The position numbers and the translations under genes were made by a program. Positions 1,453 through 56,157 of a stretch of 64,000 nt of DNA are shown here, one piece after another. The notes beneath the pieces were generated by a model that was not told the DNA's origin, made no database searches, and was given only the letters and a program-made list of their open reading frames with translations. Within the stretch, counting starts at the first letter, position 1. Each line of letters starts with the position of its first letter. Source of the stretch: a virus; IMG/VR virus record IMGVR_UViG_3300010885_075474, positions 1 to 64,000 of that record, one strand, 5' to 3'.

Positions 1453-1740
1453 ATGACCTGGAAAATTTTTATCATGCTGGTGTGGTGTTCATTCAGCGCC
1501 CAGTTTGATGTGGCCAACCATATCATTACCAGATTAGTTGATGGCGATAGCATACGACACGCGATCATGGGATCGCCGCTTTTTTCTATGTACGCCTGGC
1601 ATGGCGAAATATTGGGCGAAGGTTATAAATTTGCGATCACCGGATTGGTTTGGGATTTTTTGATTTTCAGATCGATCTGGATAGCAGCGAAAATCAAATC
1701 AGTTTCAAATCCAAAAATTTTAGACGATGGAAGACCGTAA
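1453..1740 (+). CDS. Small hydrophobic (membrane-associated) hypothetical protein
   Basis: 95 residues. The N-terminus (MTWKIFIMLVWCSFSAQF) is a hydrophobic stretch that could be a signal anchor, and a second hydrophobic segment occurs around residues 62-80 (ITGLVWDFLIFRSIWIAAK). Two weak membrane segments separated by about 40 residues suggest a small inner-membrane protein. The middle contains His residues (RHAIMG, YAWHGEI). The family is not recognised. Its start overlaps the reconstructed upstream stop by 4 bases and its stop overlaps the next start by 14 bases. Confidence 0.65.
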   Translation: MTWKIFIMLVWCSFSAQFDVANHIITRLVDGDSIRHAIMGSPLFSMYAWHGEILGEGYKFAITGLVWDFLIFRSIWIAAKIKSVSNPKILDDGRP

Positions 1741-24200: not shown

Positions 24201-27200
24201 AAAAAAACGATTCTTTACCAGAGTTAAGCAACTCAACATATTTGTCGTCTAATGCTTTAGCCGTACTTTCTACGTCCTTTAATGCAGGGTTATCTACTGT
24301 GCCGCCTAAACTCGCGACATCCGACGCTGAAGCAGCCGTTTCGCTTCCCTCAATTTGAGTAGCAGATCCCGCTCCTGCTCCGTCTGCGGCTTGGTTTTCT
24401 CCTTGCCCTTGGACTTCAGGCTTATTGCTGCCAGTTTGCTCGCCAATTTGTTGTCGTATTTCATTGATTTTATCATGCGCCTGTGGCGTCATTTGTTGAA
24501 AATGAGGAATTTGGTTGCTAAATGGATCCCAGGCATCGTAATCCCGGATGAAAGCATCGGCATCAAAGTTTTCGCCTTCTCCATAAGGAGCGAGTGCTTT
24601 CTCAATAGATGAAATGTCGGCAGATGAAAGTTGATCCAGGCTTTCCTGCTGCTTTTCCACTTCCTGCGCAACTTGCTCCGGCGTATGCTCCGGCCCGGCC
24701 CAGCGTTCAGCCGCATCCTGGTTTTGAGCAGCCATGCTATTTTTCATGTGCTGAATCGGCCCCTTTGGATTGCTGCGTATGAAGTCCAGTATTTCGTTCT
24801 TCATATCAATTGCAGCGCTCGTACTCATAACGTCCGTACCGGCCACTTGGTCCTTATTGCCTGAATTCATTTGCGTCCAAATCTGCTCGGCCAAATCCTC
24901 AATAGATGCCCCATTCTTCGCTGAATAGTGCATGCGCACGGACGGATCCTGCATTTCGGCAGGGATGTCGGCGCTCAAAGCCGCCGAACTAATCCGAGTA
25001 CCCGCAGCAAAAGCATCCGCAATATGATCCTGCGTTGTTTGCGGATTAAACGAGCGTTTAATATTTTTCGTCGCAGAACCACCGCGTCGATTATCGGAAA
25101 TAAATTCGTTGATAAGATTGTTTGCTACCCGATGGAATGACTCGTCAGCATTGGCTTCTTTGAAATTTGGATCAGCCAGGTTTTCCGCCACATAATCTCG
25201 GAATGCGGCATGATCCGATGGCGTCATTTCATCGCGCATCGTTTTGGTGACAGACGACAACGCAACATTTACCGTGTCGTCCACCAAGGATTCCTGATGC
25301 TTCTGTTGCGTTTCAATGCTCGCCGATTGCTCCCGCTGAAGCCGGTTCAATTCGTTTTCGGCGGCCATCCGCTCATCGCCGATAGTTGTATCTACAACTT
25401 TCTTTTGCTGCTCTATTTGAGCAGACAAATCAGTTGTTTCTGGCGTGTAGGCTTGTGCCACATCCGCAAACATGGTGCGTGAATCGGGCGCCACCTCGTT
25501 GATATTTGGTGTGCCTTCGCGCTCGGCAAGCGGAACAACGCGGCGCTCGCCCACAAAATCCTGCTTGGTCGTGGGACTTACAAATATTTCCTCGGCTTTC
25601 AGTTCTTTTTGCGGCGCTGCTTCTGGCGCTGCTTCAACAACAGGCGTTTCTTGCTGCACCACTTCAGCGGGCGCCATGATAGCCTGGATCTCCTCGTCGG
25701 CAGCCTTGTTTTCGTCTTTAAGGATTTTTTGCTGCGCCGTAGATGGAGAATCGCCGTAAGCCACTTGATTCGCCATTTTTTTCCATTCAAGCAGCGCCAC
25801 CTTCGCCTTGTTTTCTTCAGACATATCTGATGGCAGCCGGTTATATATGTCGGACATTTGATTAACCCTGGTCATGCCTTTTGCCACATCTTCTTCGTTC
25901 AATGCTCCGTTTTCCTGCAATACCGAAAACGCCTTTTGCATGGCTTCCGGAATTTGAACGGCAGCCAGCATGGCAGATTGCGTGAAATCATTCACGCCCC
26001 GGCGCATAGCATCGCCGCCACCGACAAGAGCAGTGGTAAGCGTGGTGAGCAAAAATGTTTCAGCAGCATCTTCAGGGCTGATATCAGTGTCAAGATGCGA
26101 GCCATACACGCCATTGAAAACTGCATTGCTGGCAATATCGCCAAACATCTGCGAGTATTCCTCTTTCAACTCGCCTTTTACTTCATGCAAAACGGGCTTA
26201 AATGCAACCTTTGCCAAATCATAGCCCGACATTTTGCCTGCTAATGCTTTTGCTTCTTTCAGACCCACCGCTTTTGCCGCAGCAAACTTGGGCCCTACGC
26301 TTTCAATGTCACCCATGTAGGCTTCAAGAACGCTGTTCAGCGCTGTTTTTGTCAAAGCAAATTGAGATGCCTGGGTATCATCCAGGTTTAGATCGCGTTG
26401 TGCTTCTTCATAGTTTTGGCGATGCTGCAAAGAAAATGCTGAAGCCGCAGCGCCCAATTTTGTGCCGCCGCCCAACCAGCGCATGACATAAAGATCGGCC
26501 ACCACGTCGGCCAATTTAAACCCCGCATTGTACACGCCAGTAAACCGGTTTTTCGCGTTTTTTGCCGCCCCGGAATCCACGAAATCTTTGATCTGATCCG
26601 TGGTCATTTTAATTAAACTACCATCCTTATACGCCTTGATTGGATTGCCTTTTTGGTCAACAACAACGTCCAAATCTTTATATGGCGCCGATTTTTCCCA
26701 AATAGGCCGTTCGTATTTATCGGGCATCGGGAAGTTTACGTTCTCGAATTCCAGCAACTGATCGGCCCAGTCACCTAAAGCATTCGCAATCATACTGCCT
26801 GGCTGCACTTTTGGGCCAGGAATGGCGCCAATCAAAGTACGCGGAATAGAAGCAATACCGCCCACAACCTGGGCAATTTTCCGAGTAGACCAGTTCCATG
26901 CCGATCCGGCAATCGTGTTGTCAATGGCTTTTTTATTCGTTTCCATTTCCGCAAGCCGCTGCGCATATTCCGGATTGCTTTTCGCATATCCATCAAATTG
27001 CTGTTTTGCTTTTTGCGCAAGTTGGAGACCGCCCACATAATGCTTATATGATGGATCTTCAACTATTTGATTGAAGCGGTACTTCAAACCGTCAACATCC
27101 ATCTCGCTCAAATTCGCAGGAGGATTTTCGATGGTTTGGCCCGCTTTAACCAGAAATTCAGACCAATCAGGCCCAAACTTTTGCTCTAATTTAACTGAAG

Positions 27201-27885
27201 CATTATATGCTTGATTTTGGGCAATAGTTGAGGTTTTGCCCAGCACATCCAGATCAAACGTGCCTTGTCGCAATGCAGACTTGCTTGCGTTTATTTCTTT
27301 TTGAGCAAAGTTTTGATGCTTTTTGCGCATAAATTCTTTACCCACCTGAAGCGGATCTTCCGCCCCGGTAAATTCTGTGGGTGCCTCAATTGGCTTAGGG
27401 ATAATGTTTTGGCTTGTAGATTCAGCCGATATGCCGCCCATACCTTGTTTCATAAGATCGGCTTCAGTCAGCCCTGGCACTTCAGTAGTGGGCTGCTGGG
27501 CAGTCATTTGCCCATCCGGAACGCCAAGGTCTTTTGCGTTTTGCTGGAAATCTTGCGCACCAATAGAATTTTCAAAAAAATCAGATGTAGAATTCCCCGT
27601 TGCAGTAGGGGCATCTGCATTTTCTTTTTGGGTAGATAAAGAGGGCGATTGCCCAACTTGTTGCTCGCTTCCACCAGGTTCTTTTTTTTTTAGATCGTTA
27701 ATGTTTGTGACAAACTCATTTAAAGACATGTCGGCAGCGCCATGCTTTTTCAATACGCTATAAAGGCGCTCAGCACCACCTTGGGCAAATACGGAATTCC
27801 TGAAGTTCTCGTAGTTTACATTTTCGCCTTGCAACAGGTCGTTTTCCAGCATTTGCTGGTGTAAGTCTTTAATTGGATCGCCCAT
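18205..27885 (-). CDS. Giant 3226-residue virion/ejection protein with two zincin-like motifs
   Basis: The largest gene of the window (9.7 kb). Low-complexity Gln/Ala/Glu-rich N-terminal third. A zincin-type HEFGH lies at residues 1584-1588 (TPVHEFGHIW) and HEIQH at 1846-1850 (MVHEIQHAV). HEIQH sits in a module starting DEIWAATGWERGRDGKW (about 1750) and continuing IFDAPRLYKAYPEL; a second copy without HExxH starts DEKIYAATGW near 1997 and continues IFDAPDFFAQYPEL. These resemble the 'large polyvalent protein' modules of phages. Residues about 2200-2600 are coiled coil; hydrophobic stretches near 2900-2950 (GMGIAQGLMGVGLTALG) could cross a membrane. It is likely carried in the capsid and ejected with DNA. 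No RNA-polymerase DxDxD motif was seen. Confidence 0.8.
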   Translation of the reverse strand: MGDPIKDLHQQMLENDLLQGENVNYENFRNSVFAQGGAERLYSVLKKHGAADMSLNEFVTNINDLKKKEPGGSEQQVGQSPSLSTQKENADAPTATGNSTSDFFENSIGAQDFQQNAKDLGVPDGQMTAQQPTTEVPGLTEADLMKQGMGGISAESTSQNIIPKPIEAPTEFTGAEDPLQVGKEFMRKKHQNFAQKEINASKSALRQGTFDLDVLGKTSTIAQNQAYNASVKLEQKFGPDWSEFLVKAGQTIENPPANLSEMDVDGLKYRFNQIVEDPSYKHYVGGLQLAQKAKQQFDGYAKSNPEYAQRLAEMETNKKAIDNTIAGSAWNWSTRKIAQVVGGIASIPRTLIGAIPGPKVQPGSMIANALGDWADQLLEFENVNFPMPDKYERPIWEKSAPYKDLDVVVDQKGNPIKAYKDGSLIKMTTDQIKDFVDSGAAKNAKNRFTGVYNAGFKLADVVADLYVMRWLGGGTKLGAAASAFSLQHRQNYEEAQRDLNLDDTQASQFALTKTALNSVLEAYMGDIESVGPKFAAAKAVGLKEAKALAGKMSGYDLAKVAFKPVLHEVKGELKEEYSQMFGDIASNAVFNGVYGSHLDTDISPEDAAETFLLTTLTTALVGGGDAMRRGVNDFTQSAMLAAVQIPEAMQKAFSVLQENGALNEEDVAKGMTRVNQMSDIYNRLPSDMSEENKAKVALLEWKKMANQVAYGDSPSTAQQKILKDENKAADEEIQAIMAPAEVVQQETPVVEAAPEAAPQKELKAEEIFVSPTTKQDFVGERRVVPLAEREGTPNINEVAPDSRTMFADVAQAYTPETTDLSAQIEQQKKVVDTTIGDERMAAENELNRLQREQSASIETQQKHQESLVDDTVNVALSSVTKTMRDEMTPSDHAAFRDYVAENLADPNFKEANADESFHRVANNLINEFISDNRRGGSATKNIKRSFNPQTTQDHIADAFAAGTRISSAALSADIPAEMQDPSVRMHYSAKNGASIEDLAEQIWTQMNSGNKDQVAGTDVMSTSAAIDMKNEILDFIRSNPKGPIQHMKNSMAAQNQDAAERWAGPEHTPEQVAQEVEKQQESLDQLSSADISSIEKALAPYGEGENFDADAFIRDYDAWDPFSNQIPHFQQMTPQAHDKINEIRQQIGEQTGSNKPEVQGQGENQAADGAGAGSATQIEGSETAASASDVASLGGTVDNPALKDVESTAKALDDKYVELLNSGKESFFWAIDRLIPENDNGSGGRNASEQISDAYHKAKADGSNPELVKAVESLLSKEQSVAAPASDVASLEQQVQNATGTAELTDLSNKIDEEMQEAPLPDELTPEYLAEMVRSGIIDNLTYTKSLNYLQGDRDVETQAAYDKAMSLREKLRDEPKDKVLPESLPKTNDKLNRPTVTVLPDGSFVVSDAGHYADALREAGAIYDPISQTWTMAADKKIELDAALSERRADGLDHAQDVRNEKVDGEVGGLLTRAAATLRRYRNRARFKKAATFQEQLDAAKALHGMSKNEMDKATRRVFERIRRAFPNVTVVTNTEEIDAVKDEMVASGEIPNTEAMGQVMGFERNGKVYIDPRVARPDTPVHEFGHIWNSWMRKNQPTLYAKGIDLVKQSNYFTDVLENPAYAHLSEEEKAEEALAQAIGEKGAFITNSTVLVKFKRWLSDMWSSIQRAIGFNPQDMTLEQYVNRQAVLLTGGKTLLKETSEDVRQMKDEIGEMAKFQIIGERGAARAGRMEDKMIADKMEQDGATPDEIWAATGWERGRDGKWRSEIPYGNVNAGNLLQGGPWSLSDIFDAPRLYKAYPELKNIQVVVNDSLNPGQGSFDGKQIEVSSADLGDVEKLNNIMVHEIQHAVQNIEGFDQGANTGVGRKISPEVDAALSNIVSMEMNGSPESMAKYFEEHPEVEELLDDIGELQDFKNLAVLSTDEINSALKQDQEASIIEYASAPGEIEARNAEARRTGTNAPISATEDIGRNVMAANFEAAKSMQEAGMPDEKIYAATGWYQNDVGEWKFRPIQRTYVRQERFPESSYTVGEIFDAPDFFAQYPELKNHTVRFMDQSNMEIRDGEIILPLQYQNGISTVMASMILRGAAQVESNVTAMPMAKSSDPVGNVEQAVMTNQKPRFAAAPQVTASYHARMISAKNILKDQLKKEGLKNMDAKIAQAASDLGLDESDLKRAVEAMALRMGYGTLRIDKGEMLDARSKVRKFMDRYNKRFAKWWQKNLTTRGLMTIDLYAANERRIGRAAAKIYRGEQYIRELESAMKEAYGKDLNDTHWRMVDNVLRGTGDWTVLPPAVGDALRKIRELQDSVSLDLLQSGIAGGEMIVTVLQNAGIDVDAADLENYQGVDLTKALGKLPFERTAEEVDAIRDFLNQHKGAIGTYLYRSYKVHDTKDWEKYKDSLDPRVLQEARDFLQKQAEDQIKQIEQDQIMRLDEIDDQIQAQKDKIADAIANLDQKISDAQDKINDILAKQAAFVANKGVPNKSLDNSLVSWQQRLADFKKRAKAARDMEIEDFAVVDALTNADIVGLPIAVKKIVGARKAIAELYQKQSKVVENNQAKIDVLTHTLNNIEAELNSILYTDDSPVSMLSRGKLGSKDLNSFRQRKDIAPEIRELMGEYHDPRLNFAKSLYRAVNALENQLFLTDLRESQMGNLFFKQPTGDAVAQISSEGNRTLDPLNGLYTTPEIKEVFEEYYQGKGMQDPFWRAYTQLSASVKYGKTILSPVTHVRNFVSNLWFAVNNAYDIRHGSKAFKSFVEAFGKKLPADQAAYFERLTELRLLGNGANIGSINSLMDAMNADAVDAWTEKYLGGGLNAVKKGAEALYGAEDDFFRVLAFETEKARYAKALYGNSFDNLSKSEQTAVEERAAELTIAMLPTYSKVPKIVKNIQLFPFVGTFVAFPAEMFRVTYNQLAITRQELKDPRLRHIGVRRLIGMGIAQGLMGVGLTALGKWFAGVTKEEEDAARYFMFDWQKRASLIWQKLDGKEMAFINLSYTDPYSFLKKPIIQLATKSNNSFAQDMASAAYSFVEPFLSPELTANTIDQVINNKSDRNKDNIYNERKGWLGDWYRLGQFIGSNLQPGIIKFGLDVYSAIAQEGVGDRPPKQLQDVLLGLAGMQTERRNMEQAVSSKFKELKQQKEYSREIFTDDRWKYKKDVEKLKSLYEDANKEYNEVLKEAKFALDSAQKAGLSKAEAIALLEKNNFSKDEIRAIITGRNIQALFKDYNK

Positions 27886-43328: not shown

Positions 43329-45755
43329 TTAAGATATTGGTAAAGTTTCCGGTTTTTCGCCTTCCGCTTCTTCTTCTTCTTCCGCGTCCATTTGTAACTT
43401 GGCTTTCAGCGTTATAAGTTCCACGTTTCGCTGATGCTGCTTTTGAGCATTTTCGTCATCTACCTTGCCTTGGAGAACAATCAGTTTGCCCTTGGCTTCC
43501 GCTTTCATGGCCTCGCCTTGGGCTTTTGCCTGCTCCATCGCTACGCCCGCTTGTGCTTGCGCCTGGGATTGCGTGACCATGGCTTCTTGCTGTTGTTGCG
43601 CCTGCAATTGCTGGTTTTTTTGAACGGCCCGGGCCAGATAGAATTGCGCCATTTCCATTTGATCTTGGTCAATCATATTGGCTACAACCAAGTAATCCGC
43701 CTCAGTAATCAATTGGTTCTGGCGATTTTGAAGCAATGAATTCATAATTTGCTGCTTCAGATTGTCGTTTGCCAGCGGCTTAATCACCACGTCATAATCA
43801 TGCACCGAGTATTCAGGCAAAAGCCGGATCTGCTTCACCACGTTACTGCCAGGCATAATGCGCGTGAATTCCAATTCGCCATGCGCAGACACAATCTGAT
43901 ATCGGCGAGCGATCTGCAAACAGATTTGTTGATACAACGATGTGGCCGCGGTATAAAGACCGGACAGCGCCCGGTTGCTTGATGCTTCAAAGTTTTGAGC
44001 AACCCCATTCAGCACATTCGCCGCCTGGGCAGACCCGTCGCTCATTTCATTGGTTCCTGATACCATGCGCAGGCTGTTCAGGTTCATTTCAATTTCAGCC
44101 TGAATAGTCTGCATAAATTGCAGGGTAGTATTAGGGAGTTCCATGATCGGCGCTCCTTTGTTTGCTGCACCTGGATCATAATCACCTCGATCTGCATAGA
44201 TTAAATAGCCTCGGATCGCATAAATATCCAGCAAATCCGGCAACGTCACATTCATGCCGCCCAAGTCCAAGGCATCTTCCATAGATGCAATATTGATCGC
44301 AATATTTGGAGGAGGAGGCATTTTCGACATAACACTACGACGCCGCAAAATTGCCAATTGGAGATCGTCAATAATCGCCACGGCACTGTCGGTAATGGAT
44401 GGGTTATTCAGCGCATAAATCTGCACCGGTAAAAGCGCTTTCATGGCGCCCGGGCTGCCATCGCGCACCGTAATCACATCGCGGCCCGCAGCATACACAT
44501 AATTCGTGCCCACAATCCATTTTGCAGTGTATACATATTGGATCGGATAATCTCGTACAACTTTTCCCATGTTGAGATTGCGCTTGTTGAGAGTCGAACC
44601 TCGCTCCACGCGATCAAACAAGCGCCCGCCATTGGATCCAATACCAACCACATAGCGCTCCACATCCAACCCGATCACATAAAAGGTCATCACTTGGATC
44701 CGGCTATTGTCATATGGGCCACCATTTCGGTATCTGGTTTGAAATAAATCCCGTTGCCCGACAGATTGGTAAGTATCCTGATATTTCATTCCTGAATTTC
44801 CACCGTAGCCAGCATAGGTGTTGGCAATTTCCTGAAGCGTTCTTTCGTCGAAGCCGGATTCGGCCCGGATGCCCGCAATGGTCATGTCTTTTACAAACGC
44901 CACAAAATCTGAATCTCGGCAATCTGCATACATGGAGGAGCGGAAAATTAATCGCGCAGGATCAACATACTCAATAATCTGTCTGCCGGTTCCGTAGTCG
45001 TGATAAATATGCGTGGCAGCAATGGCGCCATCTACCAAGTCCTCGCATATCTGGCGCTTAATGACGGGATCGTAACGCGATAAATCAAACGAGTTTTTCA
45101 GCGCCTCGGTCAATTCAATTTCCGCTTGCAGGGAATATCCGCCCAATTTTTCGATGACATCAATATCATCTGGCGAAAACATCTCGGCGTTTTGGGAGAT
45201 ATTGGTGGGCGCCATTCCTGATTCAGCAAAAAATTGCTGCGCTTTTGGATCGGCTGCAAGACGGTCGCGCAGATAGTTCTGCTTCTTTTTATTGATCGCA
45301 AGGCCATCCACTGCCGTTACCTGGGGCTGGAATCGTAGGCTCATAATCCGGTCAATGATGCGCTCCCGGAATGCAGACCAAATCCGCACATTGTCATAGG
45401 ATATATTCAGGAGAGATTTTGCATTGTCGGCACTTGGAACGGCACCCCATTTGCCGGGATCGGCGCTATATTGAAAATCAAGTATTTCTCTATACTTGTC
45501 AACAGGCTGCATACCGCGGGCGTAGGCTCGGAGGAGCGCAAGCGGGCGAGAGTTTGCCGCATAATACCCATTTGGGCCAATGACGGTTTGGCCTGCCGAG
45601 TACAGTCCGTAAATGTACCTGGCCCATAACAGCATTTGCTGATTGTACTCGGCTTCATCTTCAGGAAAGATTGCCGATGGCGTGTCAATTTTACCCTTCT
45701 CCATTTGGGTTTTAAAATTGTCCACTCCAAAAGCCTTATTGTATTGCTCCTCCAT
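43329..45755 (-). CDS. Portal protein
   Basis: 808 residues, overlapping the terminase stop by 20 bases. Portal-like features: NVRIWSAFRERIIDRIMSL in the first quarter, long mixed wing/stem regions, MKALLPVQIYALNNPSITDS, and QAEIEMNLNSLRMVSGTNEM in the crown-proximal region. The C-terminal 150 residues are a Gln/Ala-rich coiled coil (QQLQAQQQQEAMVTQSQA) ending in an acidic tail, as in the long portals of crAss-like phages. Forms the dodecameric DNA gate at the capsid vertex. Confidence 0.8.
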   Translation of the reverse strand: MEEQYNKAFGVDNFKTQMEKGKIDTPSAIFPEDEAEYNQQMLLWARYIYGLYSAGQTVIGPNGYYAANSRPLALLRAYARGMQPVDKYREILDFQYSADPGKWGAVPSADNAKSLLNISYDNVRIWSAFRERIIDRIMSLRFQPQVTAVDGLAINKKKQNYLRDRLAADPKAQQFFAESGMAPTNISQNAEMFSPDDIDVIEKLGGYSLQAEIELTEALKNSFDLSRYDPVIKRQICEDLVDGAIAATHIYHDYGTGRQIIEYVDPARLIFRSSMYADCRDSDFVAFVKDMTIAGIRAESGFDERTLQEIANTYAGYGGNSGMKYQDTYQSVGQRDLFQTRYRNGGPYDNSRIQVMTFYVIGLDVERYVVGIGSNGGRLFDRVERGSTLNKRNLNMGKVVRDYPIQYVYTAKWIVGTNYVYAAGRDVITVRDGSPGAMKALLPVQIYALNNPSITDSAVAIIDDLQLAILRRRSVMSKMPPPPNIAINIASMEDALDLGGMNVTLPDLLDIYAIRGYLIYADRGDYDPGAANKGAPIMELPNTTLQFMQTIQAEIEMNLNSLRMVSGTNEMSDGSAQAANVLNGVAQNFEASSNRALSGLYTAATSLYQQICLQIARRYQIVSAHGELEFTRIMPGSNVVKQIRLLPEYSVHDYDVVIKPLANDNLKQQIMNSLLQNRQNQLITEADYLVVANMIDQDQMEMAQFYLARAVQKNQQLQAQQQQEAMVTQSQAQAQAGVAMEQAKAQGEAMKAEAKGKLIVLQGKVDDENAQKQHQRNVELITLKAKLQMDAEEEEEAEGEKPETLPIS

Positions 45756-47799
45756 ACTGTTTCATTCTAAATGGCGACATGAATTTTCTTGAATTACGCC
45801 GTTTTTGTTTTTCCGTTTTGATAAACATGGATTGCGCATAAAGCAGCGCCCATCCATAGGCAACAGTTAAATCTCGCTTTCCCCGGTTTTGCGGAGTGCC
45901 CGTAAACTGCTTGTGGTCCTCCAAGAGATCCAGATGCGTTTGCGCTGCTACTTTGATGGCCACTGCCGATTTAAGTTCCCGCACATAGGCAGTGATCGCT
46001 TCAGACGACGCTGGTGCGCCATAATCCACCGCTCTTACTTGCTTGTGAATTGAAACCTTCATATTTGGATTAAACGCGAGGTATTTGTGATAGGACTTAT
46101 GCTCGCAGTAAGTTATAAGACCTGGTTTTGCTTTCTCGATCAGCATATCCACTCCGTAGTAGATTGCAGTCATCAAACAATCCTCATAAAAATCATAGGG
46201 ATTATCAGGTCGGTATCGGTATGTCAAACAGCACCGGTCCGTAATCATTTTTTCGCGAATCGGATTCGGCCCCCAAGCATCGGCAGCCGGATCTTCAACC
46301 GTTGGATCAAACATGCGATGAATTGCCATCGCCCCATAAGAGCCACCGCCATCTGGCTTATAATCGTCTACCGGATCCACGCCCATCGCAAATTTACCCT
46401 TATTTCCTGGTGATGCGTAACCATTCAGAAAATCTCGGTTATTCGGAATATCAGGATGCCCGGATATTGACCAGCGGCCATTATCGCTTGGTCGCCATTC
46501 CACGTCCGAGCCAAAGCCATTTTTCCACACTAAATTCCCGCGCACGGGCTTATTCAGATACGAGATACCGAGCATATTATTGCGCTGCAATTTGCCAATT
46601 TGCTCATCAAGCAAATGCGGCAATAACACACAATCTCGATCAGGCACCGCCAAGGCATCTTCTACACTGGCCGGAAACTTCCGCTTATACGATACTATCT
46701 CGGAGGCCAGGCCCGCACGGCGCATTTGAGCAATCGTTTCTTCGCGCCGTTTTGTTTCTTCTTCTACCCTATGGCGCCCAAACTGATCCACCGGAGCCGT
46801 CAGCCAATAGCCGCGAAAAACGCGCAGCAATCCGCTTATGGTCTGGTTGTTTTTATTTAGGCTTAACGGATTGGACGCATCCCATAATTTGCGCATTTCG
46901 TCAATCGATTCGCCCTCGTCCATATCTTCGACGGTCGTTGTCAATGCTGCTTTCCCTATGATCCGGCGCCCATTCTCGAGCGATAAACAAAGTTTTACGA
47001 CCGGCCACTGTTCCGACCATCTCATTTTGGATGCCCGTATTTTACTCGGTTCGTCACCGTGAAAAAAACGGAGGCGCTTACCATCGTAAGCGCCGAACAG
47101 GGTAGGCTTGAAATCAATCCTGCTCCTCAATTCCTGAATTTGCTCCAAGTGCGTGTTTTCCGCAGTCGTGGAGCGATATCTAAAGATTAACTCCTCTTTA
47201 GGCATGTCGGTGCCCGTAGATTTTGGCCGAAAGAAATAGACCATATCACGGTTCGACATCACTACTCGGTCAAAGTTTTCCTGGGCGTCTACATCGGATT
47301 TATTCATCATCCCGAACCACGATGAGCGGTATCTTGTAATAAGATCCCATCCGTAGCAGAGCGTTTTTTCCGTATCGCCAATACGGCGGGGCTTCACATC
47401 GAATATTCCATAATAGTTCGGATCGTTTTCAACATGATCCAATATTTGAAAGTATTCAATCGCTTCATAGCGGAAATCGGGATAATCACCGGATTCAGCC
47501 CGCCAATAGTTAAAAAACAAATACGCGCAGCCCGTAAAATAAACCGGTTCCCCGCCAATCAGCATCCACACGCCATTCCAGCGCCGATGCCATTCTCGCC
47601 GAATGAATTCTTCTTCTTTTTTCGGCTCCCACTTTGCAAGATCCTTTGGAACATCAATACGTCGGAATATCTGTTGCGATTTTGGCAGATCGTAATTCAT
47701 CATTTCGCTTCGCGGAGGCATATCCGGCAAACGAATTGGAATTTCAACCCCTTTTATTTCACAAAAGTTATTCTTAGTAAACGTCTTGATGTATTCCAT
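45736..47799 (-). CDS. terL: Terminase large subunit
   Basis: 687 residues. ATPase: Walker A-like KPRRIGDTEKTL (residues 136-147) and Walker B FFHGDE (245-250). RNase H-like nuclease: GVDPVDD (473-479, first Asp), YCEHKSY (about 564-570) and the final acidic KRDLTVAYGW (Asp643). Pumps phage DNA into the procapsid and cuts the concatemer. A separate small-terminase gene was not recognised. The P-loop has Asp-Thr-Glu instead of the usual Gly before Lys-Thr, as in some Bacteroidota phage terminases. Confidence 0.85.
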   Translation of the reverse strand: MEYIKTFTKNNFCEIKGVEIPIRLPDMPPRSEMMNYDLPKSQQIFRRIDVPKDLAKWEPKKEEEFIRREWHRRWNGVWMLIGGEPVYFTGCAYLFFNYWRAESGDYPDFRYEAIEYFQILDHVENDPNYYGIFDVKPRRIGDTEKTLCYGWDLITRYRSSWFGMMNKSDVDAQENFDRVVMSNRDMVYFFRPKSTGTDMPKEELIFRYRSTTAENTHLEQIQELRSRIDFKPTLFGAYDGKRLRFFHGDEPSKIRASKMRWSEQWPVVKLCLSLENGRRIIGKAALTTTVEDMDEGESIDEMRKLWDASNPLSLNKNNQTISGLLRVFRGYWLTAPVDQFGRHRVEEETKRREETIAQMRRAGLASEIVSYKRKFPASVEDALAVPDRDCVLLPHLLDEQIGKLQRNNMLGISYLNKPVRGNLVWKNGFGSDVEWRPSDNGRWSISGHPDIPNNRDFLNGYASPGNKGKFAMGVDPVDDYKPDGGGSYGAMAIHRMFDPTVEDPAADAWGPNPIREKMITDRCCLTYRYRPDNPYDFYEDCLMTAIYYGVDMLIEKAKPGLITYCEHKSYHKYLAFNPNMKVSIHKQVRAVDYGAPASSEAITAYVRELKSAVAIKVAAQTHLDLLEDHKQFTGTPQNRGKRDLTVAYGWALLYAQSMFIKTEKQKRRNSRKFMSPFRMKQYGGAIQ

Positions 47800-47868: not shown

Positions 47869-49470
47869 CTACTGCCGAAGTATTGTTGCGTTTGTTATCA
47901 CAATTCCATTTGCGGCAAGGGCGGTGCCAAATTGAGCAAAAAGAGCAAGCGTTTTTGTTGTTGTGGTATTTATACCTGTATTATCTGAAAGCACTGGGTT
48001 TGAAAATGGAAACCACCCACCAAAAAACACGGGATCTACTAAAGCCGTTTGCATTTGTGCAAACCCTTGCGCTCGCATTGTTCCAGAGGCACCCGCTGCA
48101 CTAACTCTTATTGAAAAGTTTGCTGTAAATGTTCGAAATGCGCCGCCAGAAATTGGGCGCAAACCCGCTGTTGCTGAATAAATCGTATCGGTTCCGTAAA
48201 CCAATCCTACTCGAAGATTGCCAGGCGTAGTTGCATCCGTTTGAATATAACCTTCAGCCATGATTCGCAGCGTTTGTCCAGAAGACAACGAGTTGGCGGG
48301 AATTGAAACACTTGTTAATGTTGACACTGCCGTTGTGTTGTTAATCGTTGTGTTGGATGTTGCACTAAGCAAAGTTTGGTCAAAAGGGTAGTAAGTAGCG
48401 CCTGTTCCAGATCCTTCAAATTTATTCAAGTCTGTATTATGGCGAATTACGCCCGCTGCTGCTGTGGGGCGCTGCGCCGATGTTCCCGTGGGCAATCTTA
48501 TTGCACCAGTTCCCGCCACATCAAGGCGATATAAAGGGTTTGTATTGCCTATCCCTAAGTTCCCCGCCTTATTCAATCTCATCCGTTCGGCTGCCGTTGC
48601 TGTGCCGTCGGAGGTCCAGAACGATATATTTCCTGAATAAAATGTGCTTGCTGTTGAGTCGCCCCGAAATTGGATTGTTGCCGCTTCTCTAAAAGCAGAA
48701 CTGTAAAACGCTTGCGCATGCAATGCACCTAAATAATCGTAAGTGGTTGTACAATTACCACTTAAAACGCTTGCGCCACCTCTTGAACATATAATAGACC
48801 CCCCCTCTACAACGTTGGATGCTACATTATTACCACTTCGTAGGTATAATGCTCCTGCAGAGGTAGTTGCTTGCAAACCTGCATATCCGCCATTGTTCCC
48901 AGACGTATATGTGTTTAGATTAAACCATGCATTTGTGTTGTCATAAGTAAAATTTCCGCTATTAGAAAGCGAATTGACTCCCGAAAAATAAGGTATTCGA
49001 TTCGTTGCTCCAGAAAAAGGGAATGACGGCGCCCATGCTGATCCAGTCCATCCTAAGTAGTTTCCAGCACTTGCGCCTGCCTGGCTAATTTTTGACATCC
49101 ACACGGATCCATTTGCAAGACGTGTGGATGTAATCGCTGAAACAGCCAAACGGGAACTGTCAATCGTCGCAGCGGCAATTTTTGAATTTGTCACTGCATT
49201 TGCGTTGATCGTCCATGACAATCCGCCGCCCGAAACAGTCACGTCCGTGTAGTTGCCGTCCGTAACCGATCCGGATTGGTCGGTTCCCCAAACAACGGAC
49301 GTGTCGCCCGACATCTTTATAACTTGGCCATTCGTACCAGGTGCCAGATATTTTACAAATCCGTTTCGATAAAACATCGCAAACGGCTTGGTTGGTTGAA
49401 GCCGAGGATTTCCCGTTTGGGAAAAACAGAAAATCGGAAGAAAAAGGAGGAAAAAGAGGATTTTTTTCAT
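47869..49470 (-). CDS. Tail fibre protein with N-terminal signal peptide
   Basis: 533 residues. MKKILFFLLFLPIFCFSQ at the N-terminus is a textbook Sec signal peptide with a Bacteroidota-style Gln at the expected cleavage site. The body is fibre-like: Thr/Ser/Gly-rich repeats of the type (T/S)-x-(K/R)-(I/L)-A, then LGIGNTNPLYRLDVAGTGA and RLPTGTSAQRPTAA, segments common in phage tail fibres preceding a C-terminal receptor-binding domain. The C-terminal 150 residues are beta-rich. A cleavable export signal on a virion protein is unexpected. Start overlaps the spike stop by 4 bases. Confidence 0.75.
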   Translation of the reverse strand: MKKILFFLLFLPIFCFSQTGNPRLQPTKPFAMFYRNGFVKYLAPGTNGQVIKMSGDTSVVWGTDQSGSVTDGNYTDVTVSGGGLSWTINANAVTNSKIAAATIDSSRLAVSAITSTRLANGSVWMSKISQAGASAGNYLGWTGSAWAPSFPFSGATNRIPYFSGVNSLSNSGNFTYDNTNAWFNLNTYTSGNNGGYAGLQATTSAGALYLRSGNNVASNVVEGGSIICSRGGASVLSGNCTTTYDYLGALHAQAFYSSAFREAATIQFRGDSTASTFYSGNISFWTSDGTATAAERMRLNKAGNLGIGNTNPLYRLDVAGTGAIRLPTGTSAQRPTAAAGVIRHNTDLNKFEGSGTGATYYPFDQTLLSATSNTTINNTTAVSTLTSVSIPANSLSSGQTLRIMAEGYIQTDATTPGNLRVGLVYGTDTIYSATAGLRPISGGAFRTFTANFSIRVSAAGASGTMRAQGFAQMQTALVDPVFFGGWFPFSNPVLSDNTGINTTTTKTLALFAQFGTALAANGIVITNATILRQ

Positions 49471-52400
49471 AATGCAAGGTTGTATTTTAGGGCAAAGTAG
49501 GATTTCATTGCAGAAATTTGCGATGCCGTTAAGATTCGATTATAAATAACCACTTCGCATATTTCGCCAACAAAGCTGAAATTGCCCGTGTTAGTTCGTC
49601 CAATAAAAAAGTTACTGGTGTTGGTTGTGGATAGCGTATTGCTTTGAGTATTGGCTGCATATGGGCCCAGCGGACCAACGTACGCCCGGGCTCGAAGTGC
49701 CGCAGTTGCATTCTCGGGATCCGTCGTAAACGCGAGCATCCCAAAATTACTTTCGGTATACCCATTTAGCGAATTTGAATTTGAAACGACTAAATTACTG
49801 CCATTAGAAATTAAATTCGCTACAACTCCATTCCCAGGATTACGCTGGTAATACATCCCGTATCCTCGTTGCGCACTACCAACCGTGCCACCAATAATGC
49901 CGGATAGCGTACCGTTTACAAGAATAGAATCAGCCATTTTCACGATAACAAATACCGTGGCGCTATCCTTTTGCAATACAGACATATCGGAGCTATTCCG
50001 AACAGCCCATTTTGCCGTGGTCGTATCAGCCAGCGTAGTCGAAAACTTGAACGATGGTCTGAAATTGAGCGCTACTTTCTTCCAAGTTGGACCTCGGTTG
50101 ACCAATGGAGCAGTAAAATTCCGATTATTCCCAGACCAGTCGTGCAGCGTATCCACTTGTTGCCCATTTGTGAATTTCGTTTCTTTTCCGGCATCAAGCC
50201 ATACGTAAGGACTCAAACTTAGTGGGTACTCTAATGCCGCCTTGTAGTTTGCCGGGCACTGAAATAACAGTAGCGTGTCATTTCGCAAGGATCCTGCTGA
50301 TGAATATGACCCCCAAATGGTATCCAATTCAACCACATCACCAAGAAGATTCTGGCAATACATCTGACTGTTAAGGGCAACCGTCTTGCTTGATATTGTT
50401 GGCGACTCTATGCGAAACGATACATTCTTACCTGTTTGCCAACCTAACAATTTCTGCAATACCGTGGTATTGGTCGTCGCCTTCTTAATGACAAAACTGG
50501 TGTAGTTAAAATTCATTGCTATGGTATCATACCCGGTCGCAACAAATCGTGAATAGTCGTAATTAGGGATGATGTTTGATCGCCCTGTAATGCTTGCCCA
50601 TATTCGGCGCCCTAAATTAACTTGTGATTGCGCATCAATGTGCGAACTATCTGATACAACCACGGCATCGCTGTTGTACACGCAATTTGTCCAATCAAGA
50701 CCATCGGTATTCAATTGATTGTACAAATAATTGGCAGTCTGACCATCCGGAATTTCGCCAGGCCAAATCGTTTCGCCCGAAACTAATCCGGTTTTGATCT
50801 GCACAGCCAGCACCCTGGTACTTTTTTGCCATTTAGATAAATTCCGAAATTGATTCATTACCGTAAACCAATCTTGGGTATATTGGCGCTGGGTGCGCCC
50901 CGTCCATCCGTCTGTCTCGCCTTGATACCAGACGAGAACATCAATTCGAGGAATTCCGGATGCAAATACTCGCGCGCTGATTGTATCCCATTGTGTACCT
51001 GTCGGCGAAATCCAGTTTGCTATGGCTCGCCCACCCAAAGCAGCGTAAACAACGCGGGTTAAGCGACCGTCTTGTTCTGCTTGCTGGCCAATCGTGGTGC
51101 CCCACCAAGCAGTTTTGGTCGTAAGGCCATTCATCCAATACCAGTTCGTTTTGAAAGGACGGGCCCAACTTTCTATTGTTGGATTCCAAATGCACTGAAA
51201 TTTCGACGGAACCGTGTCGGCTGGATTGCTTGTCGGGCCACACCGAGGCGTAGCATTACTTTGTCCGGTTATAACAATGTATACGGGTTGTTGCGCCGAA
51301 AACGTGCCTTGAATTCGGTCGTAATAACCGATTTTCTTCCAAACACCATACACATATTGGTAGGTATTATATATTCCAGTGCCATCATTTTCGGATAAAT
51401 TGACCCAGGTCCGTAGCGTATCTGCGCCAGTCGGTGTTGCAGCCTTAATTATCCAACCAGAATTTCCAACACCACCCGCTGCCGATGCAGGAACCCAAGC
51501 GCTGCCATTCCATTGAGGCACCTGGTTGGGCGCAGCGCCACTTTGGCCAAGTTTCGACAACGTGATACCACCCGCCAAATCGCTGTTATTGATTGATAGC
51601 GGCTTGATCTTGGTGCTGTCTATGGAATTTACCGCAATTTTAATGCCGGTTACAGCATTTGAAGCAATTCGCGTTGCAGTAATCGCGCTGGCAGCCAGTT
51701 TAGAACTATCCGACACAGCGCCCGCCGCCAAATTCCGGGCCCAAACCTGGCCGGTAGCGATATTGGTAGCCTGAATTGCATTCGCGCCAACTTTGGTACT
51801 ATCCGATACGGAGCCCGCTGCCAATTTTGTGCTTGATACAGCACCAACGGCAATAGTTGTGGCCAATGACCCTGCCGCTTTAGTGACATCACCAGTCAAT
51901 GCAGTCGTAGAAGCAACTTTCAAAGTACCGGTAACATTACTGCCCGAAAGATCAATTGGATTGGCAGTAATAACTTGGCTTGATCGGCTCAAATAATTTT
52001 CGCCCGCCAAACTTACATCCCCGGTATTCGTGCCGGATACAGTGGCGTTACCAGGCACGTCCAATGTTTTACCACCACCACTTAGCATCAAGCTTGCACC
52101 GGATGTGCTGATTGTTGCTCCATTCACCGAAGTGGGCGTAATGGCGCCCAGTGAGATCGTAAGCATTGGCGTACTCGTTGGCGTAGCAACTGTTCCGGTT
52201 ATTCCGTTGGCGTTGTTGAAACCAAATGAAGTAACGGTGCCTGTTCCGCCACCGCCGCCACTACCCGGGCAATCGTCAGCCAAAGCCGCTACCGCAGCAT
52301 ATGTTTGATTGGTGACAATGTTGATCGCAGGAGGCGTTTTATAGGCAATTACCGCCTTGCCTGCCAAGTTTGGGGTGATACTTCCGATCAATACGCGATT

Positions 52401-52688
52401 CACGACCAGCGGAACCGTGGTGTTATTACCGTTTACCGTTTCGACAGCGCTCACGGCAAACAGTTTGTTGCAAGATCGCCGTACAATTGTATCGGGTTTT
52501 TCGGTGCAAAAGTAATTGATCAGCGGATTACCATACTGAACAATCGCGGATCCATCTGCTGCCGTCCGAACCAAGCGGATTTCGTCAACATTAAAGCCCC
52601 GCGCTCCCGTGCTGGTATTGAGCGAAATGACCTGCGCATTGAGCGCAAAAGCCAAAACGGAAAAAAGGAAAATAAGTGCTTGTTTCAT
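49467..52688 (-). CDS. Tailspike with signal peptide, SASA-type esterase and LamG-like domain
   Basis: 1073 residues from the ATG at 52688 (ATGA overlap). N-terminal MKQALIFLFSVLAFALNAQ is a signal peptide. Residues about 150-430 are Ser/Thr/Gly-rich with repeats such as STKLAAGSVSDSTKVG. From about 470 an SGNH/sialate-O-acetylesterase (SASA) domain shows VITGQSNA (block I, about 475), VWYQGETDG (about 588) and DSSHIDAQ (Asp/His, about 681). The C-terminal 270 residues (YVWLDAGKETKFTNG, DWSGNNRNF, GEICEVVIYNRILT) form a laminin-G/concanavalin-like domain. It likely binds and deacetylates host surface polysaccharide. Confidence 0.8.
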   Translation of the reverse strand: MKQALIFLFSVLAFALNAQVISLNTSTGARGFNVDEIRLVRTAADGSAIVQYGNPLINYFCTEKPDTIVRRSCNKLFAVSAVETVNGNNTTVPLVVNRVLIGSITPNLAGKAVIAYKTPPAINIVTNQTYAAVAALADDCPGSGGGGGTGTVTSFGFNNANGITGTVATPTSTPMLTISLGAITPTSVNGATISTSGASLMLSGGGKTLDVPGNATVSGTNTGDVSLAGENYLSRSSQVITANPIDLSGSNVTGTLKVASTTALTGDVTKAAGSLATTIAVGAVSSTKLAAGSVSDSTKVGANAIQATNIATGQVWARNLAAGAVSDSSKLAASAITATRIASNAVTGIKIAVNSIDSTKIKPLSINNSDLAGGITLSKLGQSGAAPNQVPQWNGSAWVPASAAGGVGNSGWIIKAATPTGADTLRTWVNLSENDGTGIYNTYQYVYGVWKKIGYYDRIQGTFSAQQPVYIVITGQSNATPRCGPTSNPADTVPSKFQCIWNPTIESWARPFKTNWYWMNGLTTKTAWWGTTIGQQAEQDGRLTRVVYAALGGRAIANWISPTGTQWDTISARVFASGIPRIDVLVWYQGETDGWTGRTQRQYTQDWFTVMNQFRNLSKWQKSTRVLAVQIKTGLVSGETIWPGEIPDGQTANYLYNQLNTDGLDWTNCVYNSDAVVVSDSSHIDAQSQVNLGRRIWASITGRSNIIPNYDYSRFVATGYDTIAMNFNYTSFVIKKATTNTTVLQKLLGWQTGKNVSFRIESPTISSKTVALNSQMYCQNLLGDVVELDTIWGSYSSAGSLRNDTLLLFQCPANYKAALEYPLSLSPYVWLDAGKETKFTNGQQVDTLHDWSGNNRNFTAPLVNRGPTWKKVALNFRPSFKFSTTLADTTTAKWAVRNSSDMSVLQKDSATVFVIVKMADSILVNGTLSGIIGGTVGSAQRGYGMYYQRNPGNGVVANLISNGSNLVVSNSNSLNGYTESNFGMLAFTTDPENATAALRARAYVGPLGPYAANTQSNTLSTTNTSNFFIGRTNTGNFSFVGEICEVVIYNRILTASQISAMKSYFALKYNLAL

Positions 52689-53360: not shown

Positions 53361-54122
53361 CTACAAGATTACATCTTCGGTCATGGCGTAGGCATTTATA
53401 AAATGACGGAATGTGGCGTAGAGCGGGCGAGCGCGATTTTTCCCCCAAGCCTGATGCTCGTCGTACTCAATCCTGGCCGCTGCACCCTTCGTCAAAAAGA
53501 CTCGTTTCGACAACAAAGTTATATCAAAATCTTTACTTTCCGGAAAAAGCAGATAGTTTTTGACCAAACAACCCTCTTTTTTCACAATTCCTTTCCTTTC
53601 GTCAACACCAAACTCATTGGCCTTCCCTTCAAAATAATCACCCCGCTCGTCGTCGTCCATTTCCAAAAACACAGCGCCGTTGAGCGGATATATTTCTTCG
53701 CCATCAATGCGGGCAATCAGATTGTCATACTTTACAATCATATACCCATCAAACACCAAATGCTTTTGCGACAGCCCCACATGCTTAATCAAAACCTGGT
53801 CTCCATCCTGAATTTCAATCGGCACATCAAAATATGTTGTCCGTTGTGTCAACCTGGACGTATATTTCTGGTCGGTAGGGCCAAAATCCCGCGCATTCAT
53901 ATACGGATGAATCAAATCACCCAGATAATAATTGCTTTTGGGAGCCTTAACCACTTTCGCTACCCTGCTTTTGAACAGATCCGCCTCCTCGTAATTCCGG
54001 GAAACAACAATGCCCGACCTGGTATCATGCACCAGATCGCTGCCAAGTTCAATCAGCACATATCCGGGCGCTACGCTAAACCGCAATATGTCGATAAATG
54101 GAGAGTTTGTTGCTTCTGACAT
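53361..54122 (-). CDS. GroES-like co-chaperonin with canonical mobile-loop motif
   Basis: 253 residues. FSVAPGYVLIEL (15-26) matches the first GroES strand; TRSGIVVSR (34-42) matches the GroES mobile loop with the hydrophobic GIV(V) that docks to GroEL; DLFKSRVAKVVKAP (48-61) the next strand; GDQVLIKH (107-114) the G-D-x-V strand; and YDNLIARI (132-139) the last strand. A 40-residue insertion lies at about 62-102, and a C-terminal extension (about 140-253) is not recognised; it has a similar beta pattern (LNGAVFLEMDDD, SKRVFLTKGAA) and could be a degenerate second barrel. E. coli GroES has 97 residues. Likely partner of the chaperonin at 57378-58984. Confidence 0.7.
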   Translation of the reverse strand: MSEATNSPFIDILRFSVAPGYVLIELGSDLVHDTRSGIVVSRNYEEADLFKSRVAKVVKAPKSNYYLGDLIHPYMNARDFGPTDQKYTSRLTQRTTYFDVPIEIQDGDQVLIKHVGLSQKHLVFDGYMIVKYDNLIARIDGEEIYPLNGAVFLEMDDDERGDYFEGKANEFGVDERKGIVKKEGCLVKNYLLFPESKDFDITLLSKRVFLTKGAAARIEYDEHQAWGKNRARPLYATFRHFINAYAMTEDVIL

Positions 54123-54621
54123 AGTTTTTCAATATTTTTCCATACTTTTTATTCGTCGCATACCCGCAGCGCTGCAATCCATCCGCCCACTTCTCCCAAT
54201 CCAGCCCATATTTCTCCCGCATCCAGGAATATCGCCGGTGCATCAAAACCAAGGCGTAGTCATAAAACGATTTTTCCTCGCTTTCATACACCACAAACTT
54301 GTCGTTCGGCAAATCGTCGGCATATTCCACAAAAGGATCTGGGCCCAGCGCCTTCACGCCGAACATATTATGATAAACGCTGGATAATTCAGATCGCCCG
54401 CAATCGCTTTCAATCGCCGCCTGCGCGAGACAAATCTCCAGCGGAATTCCATACCGCTGCTCAATCAAATTTGCCATCCTGGCATGCTTCATGAAGAATT
54501 CAGCCTTTTCGCCATATACGCATGGTACTGAAATATCAATCCGCTTTAATTCATGCGCCATTGGCGCCTCAATGTTGCTGGAAAATGCCAGCAAAAATAG
54601 TGCAATGAAAAAACCTTTCAT
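54076..54621 (-). CDS. Exported glucosaminidase-type endolysin
   Basis: 181 residues from the ATG at 54621. MKGFFIALFLLAFSSNIEA is a signal peptide. The mature part is a GH73-like (FlgJ/AcmA-type) N-acetylglucosaminidase: GIPLEICLAQAAIESDCGRS with the catalytic Glu71, then NMFGVKA and a C-terminal YDYALVLMHRRYSWM / GYATNKKYGKIL region. It cleaves peptidoglycan from the periplasm after Sec export, so lysis would not need a classical holin. Its end overlaps the GroES-like start by 47 bases. Confidence 0.85.
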   Translation of the reverse strand: MKGFFIALFLLAFSSNIEAPMAHELKRIDISVPCVYGEKAEFFMKHARMANLIEQRYGIPLEICLAQAAIESDCGRSELSSVYHNMFGVKALGPDPFVEYADDLPNDKFVVYESEEKSFYDYALVLMHRRYSWMREKYGLDWEKWADGLQRCGYATNKKYGKILKNYVRSNKLSIYRHIAV

Positions 54622-54680: not shown

Positions 54681-55421
54681 CTACTTCGCCCAAGGCAGTT
54701 TGGCGATTTTCGCTCCGCCAGAGCTGTACTCATACACCGGCGTCTGGTTGTACTCCGGCGCAATTCCCTTTTTGACTTCTTCAAGCAATTTCATCCAAGT
54801 CGTAACGCCCGCTTCCTTCACTGCAACTTTGAAAGCCTGCGTAAATACGCCGCCGCCTTCATTTTCATAACTTACTTGCGCATCCGTGCAAGCAGACAGC
54901 CCGCAATAGGCAATCCGCCCCGGGATCGGGTAGGTAGTCGGCTTCACCTTCACACTCTTTGGCAATACCAGGCACCGAACTGCATGATACCCGCCACCCA
55001 ACGGATGACCGGCCATGCGGCTGTTGCTTTGGCTGAAACAAGTGTCGGAGATCGTGATAATATTCACCTGGGCCTTGAACTTCCGCCATTCCACCGGCAA
55101 TTCATAATCCCAAAGGATCTGATCGTGCATACACCGGCATGTTGCCCGTCCACTTTGCGTGTCTTGGTAGGAGCCATGCCCGCTATGATACCACAGCAGC
55201 GTATCTCCAGGCTTCATAATGCTTGCAAACCGGCGCAAGTTGTTTATCACTTCACCCCGGGTGCAGTTTTCGTTGAATAACTCGACATACTCACAGCCGC
55301 TTTCGTAGCACAAGATGTCCTTGACACCCAGCGCATCCTTCACGCAGCCGCGCAAATCGTTTCCAGGCCCATAATAATTGGCATCGTACTTGTCGGATGC
55401 CGTGTTGAGAACGTATAGCAT
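54681..55421 (-). CDS. Metacaspase-like (peptidase C14) protease
   Basis: 246 residues from the ATG at 55421, 4 bases after the upstream stop (an ATG at 55448 is also in frame). The caspase fold is clear: YYGPGNDLRGCVKDA (the 'L-x-G-x-x-x-D-A' start), TRGEVINNLRRF, GDTLLWYHSGHG with catalytic His82, IITISDTCFS with catalytic Cys128, then IAYCGLSACTDAQVSYE and GVFTQAFKVAV, which match the end of the metacaspase p10-like part. Both catalytic residues are intact, so it should be active. No signal peptide. It lies next to the endolysin in the late block. Capsid or fibre processing, lysis control or attack on host proteins are all possible. Confidence 0.8.
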   Translation of the reverse strand: MLYVLNTASDKYDANYYGPGNDLRGCVKDALGVKDILCYESGCEYVELFNENCTRGEVINNLRRFASIMKPGDTLLWYHSGHGSYQDTQSGRATCRCMHDQILWDYELPVEWRKFKAQVNIITISDTCFSQSNSRMAGHPLGGGYHAVRCLVLPKSVKVKPTTYPIPGRIAYCGLSACTDAQVSYENEGGGVFTQAFKVAVKEAGVTTWMKLLEEVKKGIAPEYNQTPVYEYSSGGAKIAKLPWAK

Positions 55422-55425
55422 AAAA

Positions 55426-56157
55426 TCAGATTTTAATGACACCACCATTGCGATGCCACGAATTTCGCGCTTCATCGCTAAAAGAAAGCAATTTGCCCCG
55501 AACTTTCCACACATATTTCGTATTTTCCATGATTTTCGGGCCGTATGTGGCGCGAACATAGGACGAATAGGCATTATGCGGATTATCAAAAAACGGCGCC
55601 CCTTTCATATAATTCTTCCAATACACCCGGCCATCAACAACTTGCGACTCCAATCCTTCGATCACCGCAATATCATCCGGCCAAGGAAACCACTCCACCA
55701 ATTCAATATTCAGCAGTTGCACCATGAAACGAGCATATTCCACCCGCTTATGCGAGCCAATCATGCTTTTTAGATGATTTCGCTTCATATTATTCCGAAC
55801 CGCTTCCGACAAATCCGCCAGATACCCGATTTTGCCATCCCTGGACTTATAAACCATCTCCAGCGCAGGCAAATAATCACCAGGCGAACCATAATGACTC
55901 GGCTGCCGAGCCTCATAACGCCCATACAGATACACATCAAAGCACAAACGCCCTGAATCCATCGTATTTTGCCGCAATTCGATATGCTCTTTCGGAATTT
56001 TCCCAAACAATCGATTGAATTCATTCAGCGCAATAGGCCGAAACGTGGTGAATTCGCCCGCTTGCTGATGCAAACGAACTTGCCGGTTCGCAAGCGACCA
56101 ATATACTGCCCGCTCTTTATACGGGAATATCAAATTTGCACGACTTAAGCCTGCCAT
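55426..56157 (-). CDS. Hypothetical late protein
   Basis: 243 residues. Contains CFDVYLYGRYEARQPSHYG, an AVRNNMKRNHLKSMIGSHK helix and a Trp/Pro segment VEWFPWPDDIAVIEG. Ends with FSDEARNSWHRNGG. Not recognised. Its coding strand is G-rich and C-poor like the neighbouring chaperonin genes. It starts inside the upstream gene (13-base overlap) and ends 4 bases before the metacaspase ATG. Confidence 0.65.
   Translation of the reverse strand: MAGLSRANLIFPYKERAVYWSLANRQVRLHQQAGEFTTFRPIALNEFNRLFGKIPKEHIELRQNTMDSGRLCFDVYLYGRYEARQPSHYGSPGDYLPALEMVYKSRDGKIGYLADLSEAVRNNMKRNHLKSMIGSHKRVEYARFMVQLLNIELVEWFPWPDDIAVIEGLESQVVDGRVYWKNYMKGAPFFDNPHNAYSSYVRATYGPKIMENTKYVWKVRGKLLSFSDEARNSWHRNGGVIKI

Follow-up and report, generated by a model that had tools for sequence, protein, structure and literature searches.

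Predicted signal peptides on adjacent fibre-like and tailspike-like genes of a phage related to Pachyviridae and a possible export-then-docking route for tail fibres

Two adjacent late genes of a Bacteroidota phage (virus record IMGVR_UViG_3300010885_075474), here called P1 and P2, encode a fibre-like and a tailspike-like protein that each begin with a predicted signal peptide followed by a glutamine at the cleavage site (Q-rule). We explain this arrangement, with moderate confidence in the full chain of events, by receptor-binding fibre and tailspike proteins that would leave the cytoplasm before meeting the virion. The window, that is the whole stretch of 64,000 nt that was analysed, covers most of the record (69,015 bases). 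The genes on its minus strand are ordered as caspase-like, endolysin, GroES-like, a 224-aa gene, P2, P1, terminase large subunit (TerL), portal and head/tail genes, and P1 and P2 sit in the late structural operon on the same strand as terminase and portal. P2 (49467..52688, minus strand) is a tailspike-like protein of 1073 aa composed of signal peptide, an N-domain of ~120 aa, stalk repeats, a SASA esterase and LamG. P1 (47869..49470, minus strand), a fibre-like protein of 533 aa, has a signal peptide, a short N-domain, the stalk repeats shared with P2, a GIGxTxP-type segment and a C-terminal head-like segment. The next gene downstream of P1 encodes TerL (45736..47799, minus strand; 28% identity to phi18:3 gp098), and the portal protein (43329..45755, minus strand) is a homologue of phi18:3 gp099.

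The starts of both genes are firm because each ATG overlaps the stop codon of the preceding gene in an ATGA. On the minus strand, the 224-aa gene ends at 52685 and its TGA shares bases with the P2 ATG at 52688-52686 (overlap 52685..52688); likewise, P2 ends at 49467 and its TGA shares bases with the P1 ATG at 49470-49468 (overlap 49467..49470). A longer P2 ORF of 1089 aa starting from 52736 was unneeded given the first of these overlaps. Signals were called with a rule set of our own, which asks for K/R in the n-region, a hydrophobic core free of charges, and Gln at +1 after small residues at -3/-1. Both proteins were called, with a short Lys-bearing n-region and the site directly before Gln. 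The P2 signal peptide MKQALIFLFSVLAFALNA (52635..52688, minus strand) has its predicted signal peptidase I (SPI) site before Gln19 (LNA↓QVIS) and that of P1, MKKILFFLLFLPIFCFS (49420..49470, minus strand), before Gln18 (CFS↓QTGN). The textbook signal peptides noticed in the sequence-only reading are thus borne out at both N-termini by the predictor and by the starts fixed through the ATGA overlaps; the cleavage position given there had to be moved, as it lies before Gln and not after it.

By chance, 40 of 18,960 positions in ORFs of the window (0.2%) pass the rule if taken as starts, and the shuffled N-terminal 45 residues pass it in 0.6% (P1) and 1.0% (P2) of cases. P1 and P2, the adjacent fibre-like genes, were alone in passing the Q-rule test among about 30 late genes, and no other long ORF in the 64 kb starts with such a signal. 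Across Bacteroidetes species, Gln at +1 occurs in an average of 71% of predicted SPI substrates (PMC5837995). The signals of P1 and P2 are very probably functional, and a Q-rule signal is most naturally taken to mean use outside the cell, as had been proposed from the sequence alone. Two other export classes were rejected, namely lipoprotein (SPII), as both proteins are devoid of a lipobox and fall into predictor class Q, and T9SS cargo, as they have no C-terminal T9SS domain, no NCBIfam match and no Pfam CHU_C.

The SGNH-type acetylesterase domain SASA of P2 (PF03629; aa 472-696, 50601..51275, minus strand; Pfam E 4.6e-14) scored 53 bits against a curated cut-off of 24.8 and holds the catalytic motifs GQSN at 475, QGE at 589 and DSSH at 680. 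A ConA-like lectin domain, LamG_3, follows at aa 934-1059 (49512..49889, minus strand), above the curated Pfam cut-off. P1 has stalk repeats in common with P2 (42% over 62 aa) and weakly resembles tail fibres of phages; it matched none of the curated Pfam, NCBIfam or named PHROG families. The earlier label of tailspike therefore holds for P2 through SASA and LamG_3, and for P1 the label of tail fibre is based on position, P2-like stalk repeats and weak fibre matches. On the whole, P1 and P2 are likely to be virion fibres. Residues 403-740 of P2 align to the tail fibre/adhesion protein of Salmonella Vi phages (Vi II-E1 and relatives) with 25% identity; this middle part alone is common to the two, and the P2 N-terminus has no counterpart in these tailspikes. 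IMG/VR yielded no direct relatives of P1, P2 or the P2 N-domain, and by tblastn against phage records only the SASA part and the GIGxTxP-type repeats matched, nothing beyond single domains. The P2 N-domain had no match to a known virion-attachment domain type, and its single-sequence AlphaFold model (pLDDT 33) was unusable.

TerL of this phage is 26-31% identical to those of Pachyviridae, Maribacter phage Panino, Flavobacterium elemo phages and marine contigs. Counterparts were found in the pachyvirus phi18:3 for TerL (28%), the portal (22%), gp123 (26%), gp114 (25%) and, weakly, gp104, and the phage appears to be related to Pachyviridae, yet too distant for placement in the family. A virion protein of 3226 aa (18205-27885, minus strand) matches phi18:3 gp123 over its last 640 residues (26%), and its first 2580 residues had no match. 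Three phage contigs with related TerL encode proteins of 416-431 aa just upstream of TerL (L037 8639-9934, L049 3785-5035 and L056 1475-2749), which combine a Q-rule signal with a CHU_C T9SS sorting domain and appear to be destined for the surface of the host cell.

Like P1 and P2, gp085-gp087 of phi18:3 (Pachyviridae, Baltivirus) form a run in the late region in which every fibre/depolymerase gene has a Q-rule signal. Such runs, of 2-5 genes with a signal of their own on each, occur in at least four Cellulophaga phage lineages: Pachyviridae (phi18:3, phi46:3, phi13:2 and phi19:3), Assiduviridae (phi19:1, phi10:1 and Nekkels), Duneviridae (Ingeline) and phi39:1. P1 and P2 have no significant sequence likeness to these operons outside stalk-like repeats, and P2 has a SASA esterase and LamG whereas the Cellulophaga operon proteins have lyase-type ends. 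Unlike in the Cellulophaga operons, the fibre genes of the window are immediately followed by TerL and no small adaptor was recognised in front of them, the 224-aa gene before P2 (52685-53359, minus strand) having given a weak PHROG match alone. In the signal-bearing operons a small signal-free gene stands directly before the fibres (L113 16302-16625; L095 3393-3743; L006 3808-4140; L093 1862-2539). Two such proteins, phi39:1 gp24 and phi10:1 gp090, are marked as detected by MS/MS, and the first of them weakly matches a baseplate-fibre connector (E 0.008). Our guess is that these small proteins are candidate tail adaptors, the division into adaptor and exported fibre being drawn from the Cellulophaga operons. 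Signal-free fibres only were found in Panino, the elemo phages, MW202828, phi38:1, phi14:2, phi4:1 and most TerL relatives, so the arrangement with signal-bearing fibres is optional.

The premise that export is not to be expected of virion proteins fails, as the MS/MS lists of related Cellulophaga phages give signal-bearing fibres as virion proteins. In phi18:3, gp085 (...GYS↓Q), gp086 (...VSA↓Q) and gp087 (...LNA↓Q) are all MS/MS-annotated, and the other nine MS/MS proteins are without signal. Altogether 13 signal-bearing proteins of 4 phages are listed (phi18:3 gp085-087, phi19:1 gp101-104, phi10:1 gp091-094 and phi39:1 gp25-26), in annotations that come without peptide maps and probably originate from a PNAS paper. 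Gln occupies +1 in 12 of the 13, phi19:1 gp104 having Lys. The signal of phi39:1 gp25 was assigned by eye, as the predictor misses it because of a Glu near the core end. The virion proteins of phi18:3 and phi39:1, taken together, are enriched in signal-bearing ones (5/8 vs 21/163; Fisher P 0.002).

These lists bear directly on the reading that P1 and P2 are exported free enzymes or decoys, which would strip or block surface glycans as a release aid, for superinfection exclusion or for receptor saturation, virion presence in relatives being due to loose binding or contamination. The SPI type of the P1 and P2 signals is genuine, the SASA family of P2 also occurs in free secreted enzymes, and abundant secreted proteins may co-purify with virions, all of which this reading would accommodate. 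It also gains from phi10:1 gp095, where the enzyme comes right after the signal, and from phiSM gp09, both signal-bearing yet absent from the virion lists though both phages were analysed, and from the existence of phage-encoded exported proteins (PMC10367356; PMC7468147; the CHU_C proteins beside TerL). However, the virion lists of 4 phages contain 13 signal-bearing proteins, and as gp085-gp087 are the only recognised fibre-like virion proteins of phi18:3, free enzymes would seem to leave that phage with no receptor-binding protein. Conserved N-modules with varying enzyme ends are, moreover, the usual pattern of virion-docked fibres. Hence, we consider free enzymes or decoys an unlikely explanation.

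As P1 and P2 have no detectable homologues beyond single domains, conservation of the signal, a comparison suggested in the sequence-only reading, was measured on the Cellulophaga N-modules, which are relatives of the arrangement and not of the P1 and P2 genes. There a module made up of the signal plus the 45-100 residues behind it keeps 82-89% identity from one phage family to another, with enzyme ends that differ. The conserved N-modules (gp086 aa 1-118 and gp087 aa 1-63) are common to Pachyviridae and Assiduviridae, the gp087-type also to Duneviridae. The signal was kept in both types, with pN 0, pS 0.27 and pN/pS 0.00 for the gp086-type signal codons (seven distinct N-termini) and pN/pS 0.21 for the gp087-type (ten N-termini), descriptive values taken from pairs that are not independent. 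These values point to purifying selection on the signal in the Cellulophaga relatives. The signals might otherwise be captured host 5' ends without function, a fibre gene having acquired by recombination the 5' end of a host gene for a secreted protein, with the signal neutral thereafter. Bacteroidota hosts do encode many such signal-bearing proteins and the phages show mosaic exchange, but the purifying selection seen in relatives and the independent signals on every gene of the fibre runs both speak against neutral capture. The N-module is inherited with its signal across phage families and was found in no host gene: bacterial genome contigs gave no relative of it, the one hit being an unrelated 228-aa protein whose hydrophobic stretch matched by chance. 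Capture of this kind, one of the options raised from the sequence alone, is disfavoured and seems highly improbable.

The two types of fibre N-terminus can be compared in phiSM gp09 (L115 2591-5875) and phiST gp030 (L116 2030-5776), which are 63% identical over 1081 residues. The identity starts three residues past the predicted cleavage site of gp09, and in gp030 the common body is preceded by 171 residues of ordinary signal-free fibre N-terminus; thus one fibre body can follow either type. Here the signal occupies the place of the classical attachment domain, so the signal-bearing form could be a free enzyme. The same pair lends itself to a signal that is unused or repurposed, the fibres remaining cytoplasmic through fast folding or a late Sec block and the hydrophobic N-terminus serving as a virion or membrane anchor, since a hydrophobic stretch replaces the 171-aa attachment domain as a short anchor could. 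Such a reading agrees with the assembly of tailed phages, which normally takes place in the cytoplasm. An anchor, however, needs no signal-peptidase motif, whereas signals unrelated to one another, on different genes and in different families, repeatedly show Gln at +1 and small residues at -3/-1, and the hydrophobic cores are short and signal-peptide-like. The N-terminus may act as an anchor in the virion, as the sequence-only reading had offered, but Gln at the cleavage site in nearly all of the unrelated signals favours cleavage.

An unused signal is also at odds with the endolysin of the window, which too carries an export signal. This glucosaminidase (54076..54621, minus strand) has an N-terminal hydrophobic export signal of its own, MKGFFIALFLLAFSSNIEA, different in kind from the Q-rule signals of P1 and P2, and is probably Sec-exported or SAR-type. 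With such an endolysin Sec would have to work late, and export in late infection is to be expected in this phage. We regard an unused or repurposed signal as distinctly improbable. Directly upstream of the endolysin lies a caspase-family peptidase (54681-55541, minus strand; Pfam Peptidase_C14, E 2.8e-17) with the His motif HSGHG and the Cys motif DTCF, an unusual content for a phage late/lysis region.

Under the preferred reading of export followed by docking, SecYEG would export P1 and P2 during late infection, signal peptidase I would cut before Gln and the host glutaminyl cyclase would block the new N-terminus as pyroglutamate. The exported fibres would then fold and trimerise in the periplasm, which is the expected end point as P1 and P2 are without a T9SS tail and hence have no signal for going further. 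Meanwhile, DNA-filled heads with fibre-less tails would form in the cytoplasm. Holin, endolysin and outer-membrane disruption would join the compartments and the fibres would dock on the tails through a short conserved segment after the cleavage site, possibly onto a small signal-free adaptor. As a side effect, the esterase or depolymerase would meet the surface glycan of its own host before and during release, and the progeny would be kept off debris. Export, cleavage, pyroglutamate formation, periplasmic folding and docking at lysis are all steps that we infer for P1 and P2.

Tailed-phage assembly is taught as purely cytoplasmic, and we know of no tailed phage for which particle completion outside the cytoplasm has been described. 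The signal-bearing fibres in purified Cellulophaga particles suggest that these particles are finished outside the cytoplasm. As a tentative generalisation, to which we give somewhat less credence than to the route in this phage, several lineages of Bacteroidota tailed phages might complete their virions there, with all receptor-binding proteins Sec-exported, matured by the Q-rule and added to fibre-less tails at lysis, and with attachment split off into signal-free adaptors. If fibres pass Sec and dock later, host range and the sharing of fibres between co-infecting Bacteroidota phages would need a new look, as would folding in another compartment and the resistance of Sec, signal peptidase or glutaminyl cyclase mutants. 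If instead the free-enzyme alternative is true, dedicated secreted capsule enzymes or decoys have been filed as virion parts and their annotation changes.

Signal peptides on the lyase proteins of Nekkels and Ingeline were mentioned by Bartlau et al. 2021 (PMC8776804), with no virion-proteomics link, Q-rule or mechanism in the passages concerned. In Porphyromonas gingivalis phages five genes obey the Q-rule with signals that expose Gln, which was read as use of host secretion (PMC10367356); unlike P1 and P2, these genes are of unknown function and were not described as tail fibres. Cryophage, a Bacteroidota phage, encodes exported enzymes that are T9SS cargo (PMC7468147) and carry the T9SS C-terminal domain that P1 and P2 lack. 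Within the searchable set, our literature searches returned no paper that relates virion proteomics to signal peptides or puts forward an assembly of exported proteins. Earlier papers seem to mention such phage signals only in passing, and the assembly route is possibly new.

Q-rule signals were also seen on other proteins of these phages. A 95-aa ORF of the window (1453-1740, plus strand) has the Q-rule-like signal MTWKIFIMLVWCSFSA followed by QFDV, and its product is possibly a small exported protein. Another Q-rule-like N-terminus, MKNIGFIFALLLCAAFCRA followed by QNPF, lies in the same genome outside the window (66572-67153 of the record; L117 3573-4154). In phi18:3 and phi38:1, 97-aa proteins with Q-rule signals are encoded far from the fibre genes (L010 19945-20238 and L111 1091-1384, both minus strand), and their mature parts are similar (YIVNGDKLV and YVVQGDKIV).
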